Of a stretch of 36,008 nucleotides of DNA, positions 23,635 through 35,295 are shown one piece after another. The stretch covers positions 1 through 36,008 of the forward strand of contig JAKAKP010000122.1 of NCBI GenBank assembly GCA_021813445.1, in the 5' to 3' direction. The stretch is from Deltaproteobacteria bacterium (lineage in GTDB: Bacteria; Desulfobacterota; Desulfobaccia; Desulfobaccales; 0-14-0-80-60-11). The notes under the pieces were generated by a model that saw nothing but the letters and a program-made list of their open reading frames with translations, had not been told where the DNA came from and did no database searches. The translations under genes were made by a program, and so were the position numbers. How positions within the stretch are numbered: the stretch's first letter is position 1; every line of letters starts with the position of its first letter.

Positions 23635-23765
23635 AGGTTCAAGGTTCAAAGTTCAAGGTTGGGATTGCCTCTACCTGGAGCCTTTTCTATTACTGCATTG
23701 AAAGGCCAAAAGCTAGTTTTTGCAACTCTAGTGCCGAGGTATAGAACTTTGAACTTTGAATTTTA
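23635..23765. repeat. Inverted pair of (GTTCAAR)n arrays in the divergent promoter region
   Basis: The left array (23635-23660) and inverted right array (23743-23765) flank about 80 bases between the divergent pyrR and J-domain genes. The arrangement matches 19966-20102. Confidence 0.7.
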
Positions 23766-23797
23766 AACTATCTGAACCAACCGCAAGGCTGTCAAAG

Positions 23798-23827
23798 TTG
23801 GCGATCTTGCGTCCTTTCCTTTATAAT
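23798..23827 (+). promoter_or_regulatory. Promoter for a probably leaderless J-domain mRNA
   Basis: TTGGCG (23798-23803), 18 bases, then a perfect TATAAT (23822-23827). The expected transcription start, 7-8 bases later, falls on or next to the A of the ATG at 23835. There is no Shine-Dalgarno sequence. Confidence 0.55.
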
Positions 23828-23834
23828 GTCAGTC

Positions 23835-24152
23835 ATGACTTTGGAAGAAGCCCGGAAATTGCTGGGTCTAGATCTGAAGGCCACCCGCAAGGAGATTCGG
23901 GCCGCGTATCGCCGCGCCGCCCGGCGCTGGCATCCGGACCGGGCCCCGGCCCGCCGGGAAGAGGAATATCGGGAGAAGATGCAGCAAGTGAACGCCGCGT
24001 ACCAGCGGATCATCCAATTCATCGAGGAATATCGTTTCGAACTGGTGGATCGTTCATCTCCGGAGGATGTCCAGCAGTGGTGGCAGGACCGGTTCTTTTC
24101 CGGGGTGTGGACCCCCCCGCCGCCTCCGGATCCGGAGGAAGATCAAGAATGA
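23835..24152 (+). CDS. Short J-domain (DnaJ-like) co-chaperone
   Basis: A 105-residue protein consisting of little more than a J domain (about 3-65). The HPD motif is H33-P34-D35 in ARRWHPDRAP, preceded by the basic helix II KEIRAAYRRAARR. The later segment VNAAYQRIIQFIEEY is helix III. J domains stimulate the ATPase of a DnaK partner; the specific client is unknown. The acidic, Pro-rich tail (WTPPPPPDPEEDQE) follows. An upstream in-frame ATG at 23826 overlaps the promoter -10 box, so the ATG at 23835 is preferred. The stop overlaps the next ATG by 4 bases, linking it to the DUF3108 genes. Confidence 0.85.
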   Translation: MTLEEARKLLGLDLKATRKEIRAAYRRAARRWHPDRAPARREEEYREKMQQVNAAYQRIIQFIEEYRFELVDRSSPEDVQQWWQDRFFSGVWTPPPPPDPEEDQE

Positions 24153-24976
24153 TGCGGGCTATCTGGATTTTATTATTGGTTCTGGCTGCGGCCCTGGGAC
24201 CATCCGGGCCGGTGCGGGCCGCGGCCGGGAGCCCAACCATCCTGGAAGATCTGCAATACCAGGTCAGCCTGGGGATGTGGCAGGATCTGGCCCGGGTGCA
24301 CCTGCGGCTCTTCCGGGTAGAGCCGGGCCGGTTCCGGGCCGAAGTTACCGGCGCGGCCCAGGGGGCCTGGAAGATCCTGAACCGCTGGCTGCCGGAACGC
24401 TATGAGACGGAAATGGCCCTGGAAGGCGGACGCCTTAAACCCCTGGTCTTCCGGGAGGTGTTCGAGGCCCAGGGACAGCGCATTTCCAAGGAATACCGCT
24501 TCGACTACGCCGGGGAAGTCCTGGAGTCTTGGCGGGGAGTGGACGGCCGGGGACCGGTGCGGGAATGGCAAATCCCCCTGAAGGAACCGGTCTACGACCC
24601 CTTTACCTTGTTTTACAATGTGCGCCTGGGAGCCATGGGTCCTTTGAAGCCGGGCCAGGTCCTGAAAGTGGCTGCCATCCCCAACCCCGAGCCCCGGGAG
24701 ATGGTCATTAATCTGGGACAGAAGACCCGGCACAGCTGGAAGGTCATGCTCAGCGTCAAATTCAAGGGTGGCGCTGAGGAGTACGGCCCTTATTTTCTTC
24801 TCTTCACTCCCCAAAAAGTGCCCCAGACGGCCTGGATGAGGGTGTTGGGCGTGGCCAAGCTGTCCGGGGAACTGCTAAATCCCCAGGGGATCATGAAAGA
24901 CGGCATTCCGGGGGCGCCGCAACTGTCGCAGCAAAACGGAGCAAGCGGCAAACCGCCGGCCCCGGCGCTGCCTTAA
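24149..24976 (+). CDS. DUF3108 family exported protein, first of a tandem pair
   Basis: A 275-residue protein with a clear signal peptide (hydrophobic 5-18, probable cleavage at VRA-AAG near 25). The mature part has the DUF3108 pattern: ILEDLQYQVSLGMWQDLARVHL, ETEM...LKPLVFRE, KEYRFDY, and YDPFTLFYNVRLGAMGPLKPGQ. Proteins of this family are periplasmic or outer-membrane-associated beta-rich proteins, some with lipid- or polysaccharide-related neighbours; the function is unsettled. It overlaps the J-domain gene by ATGA and is followed after 3 bases by a paralogue. The C-terminus is Ala/Pro/Gln-rich and probably disordered. Confidence 0.82.
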   Translation: MMRAIWILLLVLAAALGPSGPVRAAAGSPTILEDLQYQVSLGMWQDLARVHLRLFRVEPGRFRAEVTGAAQGAWKILNRWLPERYETEMALEGGRLKPLVFREVFEAQGQRISKEYRFDYAGEVLESWRGVDGRGPVREWQIPLKEPVYDPFTLFYNVRLGAMGPLKPGQVLKVAAIPNPEPREMVINLGQKTRHSWKVMLSVKFKGGAEEYGPYFLLFTPQKVPQTAWMRVLGVAKLSGELLNPQGIMKDGIPGAPQLSQQNGASGKPPAPALP

Positions 24977-24979
24977 GTC

Positions 24980-25846
24980 ATGGATAGGGCAATAGAACTT
25001 ATGGGAGGCCTGAAAGCGGTTGGGGCAAGAGGGGTAAGGAGGCTGGCCTTCTTCCTGCTCGCACTGATCCTGGCCGGGCAGCCGGAGCTTTGCCTCCCGG
25101 TCGCGGACGCCGCGCCCCAGGAGCAGTTGCTGGAAGATCTGCAGTACCAGGTGAACGCTTGGATCTGCGGGGGCGCGGCCCGGGCCGGGATTACCCTGAA
25201 AAATACGGGGAAGGAGCGTTACCGGGCTGATCTCTGGGTGGAGCCCCTGGGGCTGCTGAAGATCATCAGCGGCAACCGCCGGGATTGCTTTCAAACCGAA
25301 ATGGTCTATCGCCAGGGCCGGATGGTCCCCCTGGTGTACCGGGAAGAAACCCGGAAACGGGGGAAACTGGGCCTCAAGGAATACCGCTTCAAGTACGACC
25401 AGGGCCGCCTGGAGTTATGGGAATATCATAAGGGCAAGGGCATGTTGCACAAGTGGGATACGGCCTTGCAGAAAGAGCCGTTCTATGATCCCCTGAGCGC
25501 GTTTTACAACTTCCGCCTGGGCGCCATGGGGCCGCCCAAGGAAGGGGAGACCCTGAAGGCCTCGGGTATTCCCTACCCGCATCCGGAGGAGATCACGGTG
25601 CGCATCGGTCCCCAGGAAGAAGCGGGCCGCAAGGTCATGGTGTCCATCATCAACCGGGTCTTTGCGAATAAGGAGGGGGTGATCTTTGTCTATTTTGACG
25701 GTATGGGGTCTCCCACCCAGGCTTGGACCAGGGTGCTGGGCGTCGGCAAAGTGGAAGGGAAGATCCTCCCGCAGAGCAAGACCTTGACCCGCCCCCTGGG
25801 GGAGGTGCTCTCCGTCCCGAATAAGCAGGTGGCGTTGCCGCAGTGA
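24980..25846 (+). CDS. DUF3108 family exported protein, second of a tandem pair
   Basis: A 288-residue paralogue of the preceding gene. After a longer N-terminal stretch with a hydrophobic segment (about 21-33) and a probable cleavage near VADAAPQ (residue about 45), it has the same order of motifs: LLEDLQYQVNAW, QTEM...MVPLVYRE, KEYRFKYD and YDPLSAFYNFRLGAMGPPKEGE. The duplication is old, since only the core motifs are well conserved. The ATG at 24980 was used; an ATG at 25001 is equally possible and would shorten the signal sequence. The pair plus the J-domain gene form one operon. A role in envelope assembly is a guess. Confidence 0.82.
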   Translation: MDRAIELMGGLKAVGARGVRRLAFFLLALILAGQPELCLPVADAAPQEQLLEDLQYQVNAWICGGAARAGITLKNTGKERYRADLWVEPLGLLKIISGNRRDCFQTEMVYRQGRMVPLVYREETRKRGKLGLKEYRFKYDQGRLELWEYHKGKGMLHKWDTALQKEPFYDPLSAFYNFRLGAMGPPKEGETLKASGIPYPHPEEITVRIGPQEEAGRKVMVSIINRVFANKEGVIFVYFDGMGSPTQAWTRVLGVGKVEGKILPQSKTLTRPLGEVLSVPNKQVALPQ

Positions 25847-25943: not shown

Positions 25944-26045
25944 AACAGCCTGAGGACCGGAAAGTCTGCTACCGGCCCCCCTGAAGCATTGCGCCTAGAA
26001 GGGGAAAAGGATGCGGGGGTGCAGTCCCGCCAGGCTGTTTTTTTC
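25944..26045 (+). ncRNA. Candidate small RNA A, about 100 bases, unidentified
   Basis: A self-contained unit in a gene-free region: promoter directly upstream, then a molecule whose ends AACAGCCTG (25944-25952) and CAGGCTGTT (26031-26039) pair perfectly over 9 bp and run into a T-run, so the closing stem is also the terminator. Inside, CCGG pairs with CCGG around AAAGTCTGCTA, and CCCCC-TGAA-GCAT pairs with ATGC-GGGGG around an A/G-rich loop (AGAAGGGGAAAAGG). This makes a multi-branched RNA. I compared it by memory with SRP, 6S, tmRNA, RNase P, TPP, cobalamin, glycine, c-di-GMP, SAM and fluoride classes. Only a faint likeness to part of the cobalamin element was seen. No reading frame of note. 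Confidence 0.5.
26031..26045 (+). terminator. 3' arm and T-run of small RNA A
   Basis: CAGGCTGTT plus five further T. The 5' arm is about 80 bases upstream at 25944-25952. Confidence 0.55.
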
Positions 26046-26051
26046 ATATCC

Positions 26052-26080
26052 AGCCATGCCGGTGTGCATGGCTTTTTTTT
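26052..26080 (+). terminator. Second, tandem intrinsic terminator
   Basis: AGCCATGC and GCATGGCT form a perfect 8-bp stem around a 6-base loop, followed by a run of T to 26080. It lies only 7 bases behind the first terminator, giving a strong transcription stop before the next unit. Confidence 0.8.
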
Positions 26081-26087
26081 GAGTCTC

Positions 26088-26172
26088 TGCGGGTTAGCGG
26101 ATTAGCGGTTCAGCGGGTTAGCGGATTGGCATTCATAACCAATGGCGAAACCGCCGAACCGCCAAACCGCTA
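26088..26172. repeat. AGCGG(T/A)TNAGCGG tandem and inverted repeat
   Basis: The 9-base units GGTTAGCGG, GATTAGCGG, GTTCAGCGG, GTTAGCGG and others are followed by inverted units AACCGCCGAACCGCCAAACC. The two halves can pair. A related block follows leuA at 35296-35320. Confidence 0.65.
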
Positions 26173-26178
26173 TAGTTC

Positions 26179-26207
26179 TTGACAGGCTTTTTTTATTAAG
26201 ATATTTT
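26179..26207 (+). promoter_or_regulatory. Promoter of candidate small RNA B
   Basis: A perfect TTGACA (26179-26184), 17 bases, TATTTT (26202-26207). The predicted start is near 26214 (AACAGC again, as in small RNA A). Confidence 0.6.
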
Positions 26208-26213
26208 AACAAC

Positions 26214-26424
26214 AGCATTTGGTGAAGGATTCTGTAAATGACATATTTCAACTTCAGCAATGGCGGGACTGAGCTGCTTCTGGTGGTAGCCGGCGTAGCT
26301 GTATGCGCCGCGGCCTGCCTGTCGGTTTCGGCTCCGGTGGGGTGGAGGAGGACCTTTCGGAAGTAGCAGCACCCCCGTAACCGAGATTCCCAGGCAGGGC
26401 CGCATGCGGCCCTGTTTTTTTTTT
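26214..26424 (+). ncRNA. Candidate structured RNA B, about 210 bases, unidentified
   Basis: Bounded by a consensus -35 promoter and a strong terminator, without a plausible reading frame. A long irregular hairpin is visible. CCTGCCTG (26314-26321) pairs with CAGGCAGG (26391-26398), TCGGTT (26322-26327) with AACCGA (26379-26384), and GGGGT (26339-26343) with ACCCC (26371-26375). The apical part is GGAGGAGGACCTTTCGGAAG then TAGCAGC. The 3' arm of the long stem overlaps the 5' arm of the terminator, so the two folds compete as in an attenuator or riboswitch. The tip faintly recalls the SRP RNA tip (AGGnCC...GGAAG...AGCAGC), but its geometry does not fit. It lies upstream of the ilv operon. Class unknown. 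Confidence 0.5.
26395..26424 (+). terminator. Intrinsic terminator of RNA B
   Basis: CAGGGCCGCATGCGGCCCTG (26395-26414) is a perfect 20-base palindrome followed by ten T. Very strong by inspection. Confidence 0.88.
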
Positions 26425-26492
26425 CGCTGCGGCCCGGGAGGCCGGCAGGTTCGCCCCGGCAGCTTTTTTCAGGCGGGCACGACCTGCAATTG

Positions 26493-26622
26493 GAGAACTC
26501 TGCAAAAGTCCTCTTATTTGTCATTCTGAGGGAGCGTAGCGACCGAAGAATCTAGTGTTAGGGACGTCTAGATTCTTCGCTTCGCTCAGAATGACATAAA
26601 AAGGGCCTTTCGCAGAGGTCTC
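26493..26622. repeat. Nested inverted repeat (GTCATTCTGAG family), copy 4
   Basis: Outer arms GAGAACTCTGCAAAAGTCC and, inverted, GGCCTTTCGCAGAGGTCTC. The inner arms are TGTCATTCTGAGGGAGCG and CGCTCAGAATGACA, with GAAGAATCTAG facing CTAGATTCTTC. It is the best-preserved inner hairpin of the four copies. Its right end abuts the ilv promoter. Confidence 0.8.
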
Positions 26623-26624
26623 AA

Positions 26625-26653
26625 TTGACAAATTTCTCACATTATTTTAGCAT
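26625..26653 (+). promoter_or_regulatory. Promoter of the DUF465-ilvB-ilvN operon
   Basis: TTGACA (26625-26630), 17 bases, TAGCAT (26648-26653). The predicted start near 26660 leaves a leader of about 34 bases before the DUF465 ATG, too short for an attenuator; any RNA-level control would have to come from read-through of RNA B. The -35 starts 3 bases after the inverted-repeat element. Confidence 0.55.
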
Positions 26654-26693: not shown

Positions 26694-26927
26694 ATGGAAA
26701 GACAAGATTTAGAAATGATTGAGGCATGGAAGGAGCGGGATCCCGAATTGAAACGCTTCGTGGATGAACATGAGGAATACGAACGGCGGTTGGAGGAATT
26801 CAACCGCCGTCCTTACCTGACCGCGGCGGAAAGCATGGAGCGGAAGCGTCTCCAAAAACTGAAACTGGCCGGCCGGGACAGGATAGAGCAGATCCTGGCC
26901 AAATACCGCCAGAAGGAAAGCGCGTGA
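26694..26927 (+). CDS. DUF465 (YdcH-like) small coiled-coil protein
   Basis: A 77-residue, highly charged, helical protein beginning [20 protein letters not shown]. The pattern D.EL..L...H..YE.RL.E...RPYLT..E..E...L.K.KL...D.I..I matches the DUF465 family, small two-helix proteins of unknown role found next to diverse genes. A GAGG upstream at suitable spacing supports the ATG at 26694. Its stop codon overlaps the ilvB start by one base, so it is the first gene of the ilv operon. This DUF465-ilvB pairing may be functional or only positional. Confidence 0.82.
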
Positions 26928-28628: not shown

Positions 28629-29117
28629 ATGGAACCGCGTCACACGATTTCTGTTTGGGTGGATAATACTCCCGGAGTCCTCTCCCGGGTCACCGGCCTC
28701 TTTTCCGGCCGGGGGTTCAACATCGAGAGCCTGTGCGTGGCCGAGACCATGGACCCTGCGGTCTCCCGCATCACCATCCTCTCCACCGGGGATGAGCAGA
28801 TTATCGAGCAGATCATCAAACAGCTGCACAAGCTCATCAACGTCATCAAGGTGGTGGACCTGAGTGAACTGGACCACGTGGAGCGGGAGATGGCCCTGGT
28901 GACCGTAAAGGCGGAAGACAAGTCCCGGGCCGAAGTCCTGCGCATCGCCGACATCTTCCGCTGCCGGGTGGTGGACGTCAGCCCCCATACCTACACCCTG
29001 GAGATCACCGGCAACCACGAAAAGATCGGGGCCGTGCTCAGCTTGCTGAAGAACCACGGCATCCTGGACGAAGTGCGCACCGGCACCTTGGCGATACAGA
29101 GGTCGAAAAAGGATTGA
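28629..29117 (+). CDS. ilvN: Acetolactate synthase, small (regulatory) subunit
   Basis: A 162-residue regulatory subunit (IlvN/IlvH type). The N-terminal ACT domain (about 4-78) begins HTISVWVDNTPGVLSRVTGLFSGRGFNIESL, which binds valine and mediates feedback inhibition. The C-terminal half (about 80-160) is the ALS_ss_C domain that activates the catalytic subunit. A strong AGGAGGGGAGAG ribosome site precedes the ATG. It is translated from the same mRNA as ilvB. Confidence 0.96.
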   Translation: MEPRHTISVWVDNTPGVLSRVTGLFSGRGFNIESLCVAETMDPAVSRITILSTGDEQIIEQIIKQLHKLINVIKVVDLSELDHVEREMALVTVKAEDKSRAEVLRIADIFRCRVVDVSPHTYTLEITGNHEKIGAVLSLLKNHGILDEVRTGTLAIQRSKKD

Positions 29118-29151: not shown

Positions 29152-29706
29152 ATGATGTTTTGGGGTCGATTTAAAGATGCGGCTTGTAAAAAGTCGCCTG
29201 GACGGCACCATCGGGCGTTACTTCTGGCACTGGCGGTCCTCATATTGGGACTGACCCCGGCTTGTAATTTCAAGCTTAACGATCCCCAGAAGTTAATTCC
29301 CTTCCTCAGGGTTGAACTTCCCGGTTGGAAATTGGCGGAAGGTTATCCCCGGGCCAATCGGGTGCAAGATAAGGGGCGCTCATTTCTGCTAGCCGAAGGC
29401 CTCTTTTCTTCCGGGAAAAGCACCATCAGCGTGATTATCCGGGATGGCGAGATAGCCCCAGAAGTGGCTATATTTAAGATGTTAAAAGAAAGTGACAACG
29501 AGAAAGAATATTGCCGGAGAATCATGGTTCAGGGATTCACGGCTGTGGAAATGGTTATGAAAGAACAAAAATTCGCCTTCCTTTTCATCAAGGTAACGGA
29601 CCATTGCCTGATTACTATGAAAGCTTCAGAGATGGCGGATACAAAGGTCTTAAAGGACCTAAGCAATAAAATCGACTTGCCAAGGCTGGCGGGTATGGTC
29701 AAGTGA
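29152..29706 (+). CDS. Putative exported protein or lipoprotein of unknown function
   Basis: A 184-residue protein. A basic N-terminus (CKKSPGRHHR) is followed by a hydrophobic segment (about 22-34) and a Cys at about 38 in GLTPAC, a weak lipobox. It could therefore be a lipoprotein or a secreted protein. The mature region is mixed alpha/beta with no motif I recognise (LRVELPGWKLAEGYPRAN; later FTAVEMVMKEQKFAFLFIKVTD). Its base composition is less GC-rich than that of ilvN and ilvC, between which it sits, so it may be an insertion into an otherwise standard ilvBNC cluster. Two adjacent ATGs are possible starts; no good ribosome site is visible. Confidence 0.7.
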   Translation: MMFWGRFKDAACKKSPGRHHRALLLALAVLILGLTPACNFKLNDPQKLIPFLRVELPGWKLAEGYPRANRVQDKGRSFLLAEGLFSSGKSTISVIIRDGEIAPEVAIFKMLKESDNEKEYCRRIMVQGFTAVEMVMKEQKFAFLFIKVTDHCLITMKASEMADTKVLKDLSNKIDLPRLAGMVK

Positions 29707-29764: not shown

Positions 29765-30760
29765 ATGGCGATCAAGACTTACTACGACAAGGATGCGGAT
29801 TTAAAAGTTTTAAAGGGCAAGAAAGTGGCCATCATCGGCTTCGGCTCCCAGGGCCACGCCCAGGCTCTGAACCTGCGGGATTCCGGGGTGGATGTAGTGG
29901 TGGCCGAAATGCCGGGCACCGACAACTATGAAGCCGCCAAGAAATACGGCTTCAAACCGGTGGCCGCGGCGGACGCAGCCAAGGCGGCCCAGGTGGTGCA
30001 GATACTCACCCAGGACCATGTGCAGGCCCAGCTCTATGAGAACGACCTGAAGCCCCACATGGCCGCGGGCAAGACCCTGCTCTTTTCCCACGGCTTTAAC
30101 ATCCATTTCGGCCAGATCGTGCCGGACCCCAAGGTGGACGTGGTCATGGTGGCCCCCAAGGGTCCGGGGCACCTGGTGCGCAGCGAATATGAAAAAGGCG
30201 CGGGCGTGCCCTGCCTGGTGGCCGTGGAGCAGGACGCGTCGGGCCAGGCCCTGAAGACTGCGCTGGCCTACGCCAAGGGCATCGGCGCCACCCGGGCCGG
30301 GGTCCTGGAGACCACCTTCCGGGAAGAGACGGAGACGGACCTCTTCGGCGAGCAGTGCGTGCTCTGCGGCGGAGTCTCGGAACTGGTCAAGGCCGGGTTC
30401 GACACCCTGGTGGAGGCGGGCTACGCCCCGGAGATCGCCTATTTCGAGTGTATGCACGAGCTCAAGCTCATCGTCGACCTCTTTTACCAGGGGGGCTTGA
30501 ATTACATGCGCTACTCGGTAAGCGACACCGCGGAGTTCGGCGACTACACCCGGGGCCCGCGCATCATCACCGAAGAGACCCGGGAAGAGATGCGCCAGAT
30601 TCTCTATGAGGTGCAGTCCGGCGAGTTCGCCCGGGAGTGGATCCTGGAAAACCAGGCCCGGCGGCCGGTTTTCAACGCCCTGCGGCGCCAGGAGGCGGCC
30701 CATCCTATTGAGGAAGTGGGGAAAAAGCTCCGCTCCATGATGGGCTGGCTGAAAAAATAG
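29765..30760 (+). CDS. ilvC: Ketol-acid reductoisomerase (class I)
   Basis: A 331-residue NADPH-dependent enzyme that isomerises and reduces acetolactate or acetohydroxybutyrate. The Rossmann motif [17 protein letters not shown] spans 25-41. The loop after beta-2 ([16 protein letters not shown]) lacks the usual Arg and Ser phosphate-binding residues of NADPH forms, so a relaxed or NADH preference is possible. The knotted C-terminal domain (about 183-328) carries the Mg ligands in ETDLFGEQ (Asp about 190, Glu about 194) and the substrate residues in [22 protein letters not shown] precedes the ATG. It is followed by a large terminator hairpin. Confidence 0.97.
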
Positions 30761-33640: not shown

Positions 33641-33744
33641 AAGACCGGCCCTTCCGGCCTTTTGTTGGTTGAGAATCTTAACGCGGCCTGAAGCCGGGTT
33701 TTGAAATGGCTTGCAAGGTCCCCCAAAGGGACAAGGAGTGCCAG

Positions 33745-35295
33745 ATGCCAGACAAAGTAATTATCTTCGATACCACGCTCCGGGATGGGGAGCAGACTCC
33801 CGGGGCCAGCCTCAATGTGGACGAGAAACTCCAGATCGCCCGGAGCCTGGAGCTCCTCAACGTGGACGTCATCGAGGCGGGCTTTCCTTTTGCGTCCCGG
33901 GGTGATTTCGAGGCCGTGCGGGCGGTGGCCCGGGAGATCCGCACCCCCCAGATTGCGGGCCTGGCCCGGGCCTATGAAAAGGATATCGACGCCTGCTGGG
34001 AGGCCGTCAAAGAGGCCACCCAGCCCCGCATCCATACCTTTATCTCCACCTCCGACATCCATCTGAAATACCAGATGAAAAAGTCCCGGGAGGAGGTGCT
34101 GGAGATGGCCGCGGCCGCGGTGAAGCACGCGGCCAAATACACCAGCAACGTGGAGTTCTCGGCCATGGACGCGTCCCGGAGCGACCTGGCCTACGTGGCC
34201 CAGGTCTTCAGCGCGGCCATCGACGCGGGGGCCAAGACCCTGAACTTCCCGGACACCGTGGGCTACGGCATCCCGGAGGAGTTCGGGTCCAAGATTAAAT
34301 ACTTGATGGAGCATATCCCCAATATCCACAAGGCGGTGATCTCCGTACACTGCCACAACGATCTGGGGTTGGCCGTGGCCAACACCCTGGCCGCCATCGC
34401 CAACGGCGCCCGCCAGGTGGAAGTGACCATCAACGGCATCGGCGAGCGGGCCGGCAACGCCTCCATGGAGGAGGTGGTCATGGCCCTGGCCACCCGCAAG
34501 GACCTGTTTGCTTACTATACGGACATCGTCAGCCAGTACATCTTCCCCACCAGCCGCCTGGTGAGCAAGCTCACCGGGGTAATAGTGCAGCCCAACAAGG
34601 CCATTGTCGGGGCCAACGCCTTTGCCCACGAGTCCGGCATCCACCAGGACGCGGTGCTCAAAGAGGCCAGCACCTTCGAGATCATGACCCCCACTGCGGT
34701 GGGTATCAAGAAGAGCACCCTGCCCCTGGGCAAGCTCTCGGGCCGCCACGCCTTCAAAAAGAAGCTCCAGGACATGGGCTTTTACCTGGGCGATGAGGAA
34801 TTGAACCGGGTCTTCTACCGCTTCAAAGACCTGGCGGACCGGAAAAAAACGGTCTTCGACGAAGACTTGGTGAGCCTGGTGGAAACCGAAGTGATCTACA
34901 AGTCGGTGCCCGAGCATTTCAAGCTGGTGGAACTGGTGGTGCTCACCGGCACGACGGTCAAACCCAACGCCAATATCAAGATGGAGGTGGGGGGCGAGCT
35001 CAAGTCCTACTCCACCTTCGGGGACGGCCCCATTGACGCGACGTTTAGGGCCATCACGCACCTGGCCCAATCCAAGTGCAAGCTCCTCAAGTTCGCGGTG
35101 AGTTCCATCACCGGCGGCACCGAGGCCCTGGGGGAGGTATCCGTGCGCTTGGAGGACGAAGGCACCATAGTCACCGGCCAGGGCGTGGACCCGGACGTGG
35201 TCACCGCCAGCGCCCGGGCCTATATCAATGGCCTGAACCGGCTGAAATTCTCCAAGGAGATGGGGCCCAAGAAGGGGAAGCCAGAAGAACTGTAG
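33745..35295 (+). CDS. leuA: 2-isopropylmalate synthase
   Basis: A 516-residue enzyme condensing acetyl-CoA with 2-oxoisovalerate, the committed step of leucine synthesis. The HMGL-like TIM barrel (about 1-270) has [12 protein letters not shown] starting at D9 and the metal-binding HCHNDLG with H202 and H204. The linker [16 protein letters not shown] (about 292-307) is diagnostic. The C-terminal LeuA dimer domain (about 385-510) binds leucine for feedback inhibition and contains [27 protein letters not shown] upstream fixes the ATG at 33745. It lies 1.4 kb beyond pssA, separated by the MITE-like element and the DUF559 gene. Confidence 0.97.

Follow-up and report, generated by a model that had tools for sequence, protein, structure and literature searches.

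RNA B, the element at positions 26179–26424 of the window (the whole stretch of 36,008 nt that was analysed), is in all likelihood a ribosome-mediated transcription attenuator which senses valine and leucine for ilvBN-ilvC-leuA; a probability of roughly 0.8 is given to this reading. It builds on the parts of the sequence, on their conservation at the locus, and on a predicted folding switch. The kind of switch is a known one; the sequence of RNA B is unrelated to those known and belongs to no Rfam family. In the literature searched, no attenuator of this type is described for the Thermodesulfobacteriota/Desulfobaccia lineage. The attenuator reading makes what looked like an orphan structured RNA a regulatory circuit open to testing and would add a sequence-unrelated attenuator responding to branched-chain amino acids (BCAA) in a Thermodesulfobacteriota lineage, probably the class Desulfobaccia. 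The parts of the leader region are the following:

26179–26207, + strand: P1, sigma-70-like promoter of the leader; TTGACA (26179–26184), 17-nt spacer, TATTTT (26202–26207)
26225–26229, + strand: Shine-Dalgarno sequence AAGGA, as read from the sequence, 8 nt before the ATG at 26238
26238–26366, + strand: leader peptide ORF of 42 codons, MTYFNFSNGGTELLLVVAGVAVCAAACLSVSAPVGWRRTFRK and stop; frame kept in six genomes
26274–26303, + strand: control codons of the stall model, L13 L14 L15 V16 V17 .. V20 .. V22 (CTG CTT CTG GTG GTA .. GTA .. GTA)
26285–26319, + strand: predicted protector hairpin 1:2, 26285–26297 with 26304–26319, with internal bulges
26310–26403, + strand: core of antiterminator 2:3, 26310–26321 with 26391–26403
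26324–26331/26381–26388 and 26335–26344/26370–26377, + strand: predicted extensions of antiterminator 2:3
26395–26424, + strand: intrinsic terminator 3:4, 10-bp perfectly palindromic hairpin plus T10

P1 matches the consensus at 10 of 12 positions, in agreement with the promoter proposed in an earlier note on this DNA, and its −35 and −10 boxes are found likewise in four relatives (G001, G003, G006, and G013). The palindrome and T-tract described there are also present (26395–26424); CAGGGCCGCATGCGGCCCTG is a 20-bp perfect palindrome (26395–26414), followed by ten T residues (26415–26424). An inverted-repeat search recovered the long stem as 26314–26340 pairing with 26372–26398. That stem and terminator share bases is real, but the overlap spans 26395–26403 and not only the four bases 26395–26398 noted before, and the antiterminator occupies nine of the ten bases of the terminator 5′ arm. 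The hairpin formed by 26285–26297 and 26304–26319 occupies much of segment 2 (26310–26321), and in the predicted fold the four regions match the classical attenuator segments 1, 2, 3, and 4. The Leu/Val control codons lie just 5′ of the left arm of the antiterminator; as the stretch LLLVVAGVAV precedes ilvBNC-leuA, they fit the amino acids of the downstream operon. The proposal that RNA B is an expression switch stands with regard to the competing stem and terminator, on the grounds of the folding model, conservation, and genomic context; its sensor, the leader ORF, had been overlooked.

Translation of the leader, stalling, read-through, and a division of labour between P1 and a second promoter, P2, would combine in the following manner. 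The transcript from P1 would start with the 42-codon leader ORF; with charged Val-tRNA and Leu-tRNA plentiful, the ribosome would pass codons 13–22 and reach the stop at 26366, melting or covering segment 2 (26310–26321), and segments 1 and 2 could re-pair behind it. Segment 3 (26391–26403), once freed, would pair with segment 4 to give the terminator, and an RNA of ~210 nt would end at T10. When Val or Leu is short, the ribosome would stall on codons 13–20 and cover segment 1, which would let segment 2 form the long antiterminator stem with segment 3; transcription would then proceed beyond P2 into DUF465-ilvB-ilvN-ilvC-leuA, with a rise in BCAA synthesis. P2 would provide basal, unattenuated transcription.

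The effect of a stalled ribosome was modelled by deleting all RNA as far as 13 nt beyond the position at which the A-site codon starts and then computing the probability of the terminator, an equilibrium treatment of a process, attenuation, that is kinetic. With the A site on Leu15–Val20, this probability is 0.00–0.01 in the window; it is 0.70–0.88 on codons 21–23, and 0.99 from codon 24 on. Leading-edge offsets of 9–17 nt move the edge of the switch by no more than about two codons, and temperatures of 30–60 °C have hardly any effect. The median shuffle of the leader keeps the terminator at 0.99 over the control codons, and dinucleotide shuffles as good as the real leader were obtained in 0 of 150 cases each for the window, G006, G013, and G018 (two of 150 for G021, one of 150 for G007). 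A zone of low terminator probability on Leu/Val/Ile codons is likewise predicted by the stall model for G006, G003, G001, G013, and G021, located at I10–V15 in G013 and at V16–L22 in G021. The protector hairpin, with a predicted −17.4 kcal/mol, differs in its dominance among relatives; when no ribosome is present, the terminator has a probability of 0.66 in the window and of anything between 0.001 and 0.97 in the homologues, and the hairpin is therefore not uniformly supported across them by the model, which counts against the attenuator. The folding energy of the whole RNA B is unexceptional (z = −1.56, with 14 of 200 shuffles folding as well), as is that of RNA B minus the 3′ arm of the terminator (z = −0.04); the evidence for RNA B is the switch and its conservation, not total stability.

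A DNA search detected the element in three genomes of the same genus (G001, G003, and G006) and in G013 and G021. The covariance search proposed in the earlier note recovered it in six genomes out of 29 sampled from the class, which belong to two families, and every time beside DUF465-ilvB, which bears out the location upstream of the ilv operon in the window and in relatives; within these 29 genomes nothing convincing was found elsewhere, the sole other match being one of 25 bits in G021 (E 0.006). A lack of conservation of the competing helices had been named as counting against a switch; they are retained in the relatives with the element. For the long stem, 94% of the cells of the alignment are paired, as compared to 37–52% when the alignment is slid. 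Two pairs have changes on both sides, a score that is reached by 42–67 of 500 shuffles; this covariation, another point against the attenuator, is weak because the six sequences barely vary in the core. The absence of the element from three of the seven species of the genus (G002, G004, and G005), in which the second promoter directly follows the skipping-rope RNA located upstream of RNA B, also speaks against it.

All six homologues preserve the leader reading frame, which in G013 is shortened in frame, and the L/V/A-rich stretches of the leader, to the disadvantage of the attenuator, would also fit a membrane segment. RNA B might thus be an mRNA in its own right that encodes a small membrane protein with a single span, the terminator simply ending that gene and ilv being driven by P2 alone; it has its own promoter, Shine-Dalgarno sequence, ORF, and strong terminator, ilv has its own conserved P2, and the hydrophobic stretch is followed by a basic C-terminus, WRRTFRK. 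The peptide matches no Pfam family. This alternative is nevertheless considered quite improbable: leader codons 2–12 vary between the species of the genus, mostly by non-synonymous changes, whereas codons 29–38 show no change of any kind, and the predicted helices are built from the invariant parts. The constraint would therefore be one on RNA and not on protein, and the pattern, as judged from the aligned sequences, speaks for a regulatory leader over a functional small protein. Further, the ORF is always found at ilv and without a second copy, the folding switch is centred on the Val/Leu codons and absent from shuffles, and unrelated BCAA-rich peptides occupy the same site in relatives.

Such sequence-unrelated, BCAA-rich leaders, each with a terminator, are present at this locus in G007, G009, G018, and G014. 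The leaders of G007 and G009 end in ..GSELEVVVVCQG and ..AAAAGVVVWPD, those of G018 and G014 read MKTKGRPAAILTLLLDAASRLVAVEVCGGAQRP and MKNMGHPATILTLLLDAAYLLVSVEVCVGGRRP (each followed by a stop), and each is situated ~20 nt 5′ of a GC-rich terminator. When submitted to the stall model, the terminator of G007 is lost exactly with the ribosome on V48–V51 (a VVVV run) and that of G018 while the ribosome occupies the Leu/Val region; switching is partial in G009 and is hardly present, and not clean, in G014, both of which weigh against the attenuator, and clear switching is thus predicted for two of the four. Valine codons in the leaders are skewed towards GTA, which accounts for 3/6 of them in the window, 3/6 in G007, 2/5 in G009, 2/3 in G018, and 4/4 in G014, that is, for 40–100% (binomial P 4e-6 to 5e-3, with the window genes and ilvB as the baseline of codon usage). 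GTA makes up 5% of Val codons in ten window genes, 0/41 in the window ilvB, and 0–3 of 14–47 in the ilvB stretches of 22 family genomes. RNA pairing may account for part of the preference for GTA, and rare control codons are no universal rule for attenuators (PMC1183508). This single locus has three or four unrelated types of leader, each rich in BCAA codons and in GTA, and is a natural example of attenuators that converged or were replaced. In a phylum-wide survey of 80 loci upstream of ilvB, a crude detector that would miss weaker leaders such as those of G013 and G009 gave one leader-plus-terminator match and one in the reverse-strand control, which is no sign of such leaders being common in the phylum. 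In a Desulfobacteraceae MAG (L144), what may be a hydrophobic leader ORF (..GLFIISLILIIGVLVGLIVACEAHRG..), with a terminator behind it, lies ~150–310 nt upstream of ilvB.

In the ilvGMEDA, ilvBN, and leu operons of E. coli and Salmonella, a ribosome-mediated choice between a 2:3 antiterminator and a 3:4 terminator is set by Leu/Val/Ile codons, and RNA B would, according to the folding model, use the same choice. From attenuation in these operons (PMC1183508) RNA B differs in that its control codons are spread in LLLVVAGVAV and do not form one long run, that the antiterminator arm falls within the ORF, a good way ahead of the stop, and that it has no match in Rfam. Narunsky et al. showed for Corynebacterium that a motif upstream of ilvB, identified as a structured RNA, acts in the manner of a uORF attenuator, and they proposed that ilvB is commonly attenuated in this way (PMC10272879); by analogy, RNA B fits this pattern with an unrelated sequence. 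The Corynebacterium ilvBNC attenuator (ilvB-II motif, leader MTIIRLVVVTARRLP; PMC10272879, PMC11857589) likewise has a BCAA-rich leader ORF upstream of ilvB and, like RNA B, terminator, antiterminator, and anti-antiterminator hairpins; the control codons proposed for Corynebacterium glutamicum include CUU and GUA (PMC11857589), which are also present in the leader of RNA B. However, the latter has 42 codons compared to 15, is unrelated in sequence, and stems from another phylum; its ORF starts ~30 nt past the −10 hexamer, while the Corynebacterium ORF is next to +1, and RNA B, unlike its counterpart, has a second conserved promoter after the terminator. The ilvB and ilvB-OMG RNA motifs of other bacteria, rich in BCAA codons, are also proposed uORF attenuators of ilvB (PMC10272879); RNA B matches none of the Rfam families.

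Alternative terminator and antiterminator helices upstream of ilvB would also be expected of a ligand-binding riboswitch or T-box, and certain other ilvB genes are under ppGpp riboswitch control (PMC10272879), but a conserved ORF spans the putative aptamer region of RNA B and, in the model, the position of the ribosome alone would explain switching, which leaves this a very remote prospect. The Rfam scan suggested earlier assigned RNA B to no family; up to an E of 10 only chance-level matches were obtained, with no T-box, ppGpp or other riboswitch, or ilvB motif among them. For SRP RNA and 6S RNA, candidates suggested by sequence motifs, Rfam likewise gave no support up to an E of 10. An antisense ORF (26102–26524) was also dismissed, as the homologues do not consistently have open reverse frames.

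Downstream of the terminator, the following features were assigned:

26625–26653, + strand: P2, second promoter of the ilv operon, TTGACA-17-TAGCAT
26694–26927, + strand: DUF465 small protein gene, the first after P2
26927–28618, + strand: ilvB, acetolactate synthase large subunit
28629–29117, + strand: ilvN/ilvH, acetolactate synthase small subunit
29765–30760, + strand: ilvC, ketol-acid reductoisomerase
33706–35295, + strand: probable leuA, 2-isopropylmalate synthase, as read from the sequence

Between ilvN and ilvC lies a lipoprotein-like gene (29152–29706) with a signal sequence ending in PAC and without a Pfam match. TTGACA is found 60–79 nt upstream of DUF465, and downstream of any leader terminator, in 22 of 22 family genomes; ilv could thus be transcribed without the attenuator, which is an argument against the latter. 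Usually, though not by strict definition, the sole entry to an attenuated operon is upstream of the terminator, and this is not the case here, owing to P2. As P2 is downstream of the terminator, only transcripts from P1 would be attenuated, and read-through would add to ilv expression and not be its only source. The arrangement is best read as tandem control, P2 probably being basal and P1 BCAA-responsive; the conserved P2 raises the question of what use it is to attenuate only part of transcription.

With the operon already driven by P2, the leader RNA that ends at the terminator, or its peptide, may act in trans, as the leader RNA and peptide of the Sinorhizobium trp operon reportedly do. 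RNA B might then be a small regulator whose location at ilv is historical; this is unlikely, even if its promoter and terminator are autonomous, ilv has its own P2, and the nucleotide sequence of the core is unusually constant, since what does not vary is the sequence that forms the three alternative helices. The 11-nt perfect complementarity between 26022–26032 of the skipping-rope RNA and 26261–26271 of the leader ORF is not retained in G006 or G003, and pairing of RNA A with RNA B was rejected as not conserved. A related, equally doubtful scenario is that the family repeatedly gains, loses, or swaps a self-contained promoter-leader-terminator cassette at one fixed site between the skipping-rope RNA and the invariant P2, the terminated RNA or peptide acting in trans on BCAA metabolism beyond gating read-through.

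RNA A, the other structured RNA of this region, is a skipping-rope RNA (RF02924; 25945–26038; Rfam, 43.6 bits), which is followed by its own terminator (26052–26073) and is near the ilv operon in several relatives, too. The earlier note had related it to RNA B by proximity and a common AACAGC start; the two are neighbours and nothing beyond that, the start being a hexamer not retained in relatives. Between RNA A and P1 (26086–26172) there are 8-nt tandem repeats (TTAGCGGA-like) with an inverted counterpart. A palindromic repeat (GTCATTCTGAGGGAGCG...CGCTCAGAATGAC) is located between the leader terminator and P2 (26515–26605); it was not seen at the same site in G001, G003, or G006 and has 51 matches in its own genome. 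Just 5′ of the skipping-rope RNA, two adjacent DUF3108 genes are encoded (23756–25846).
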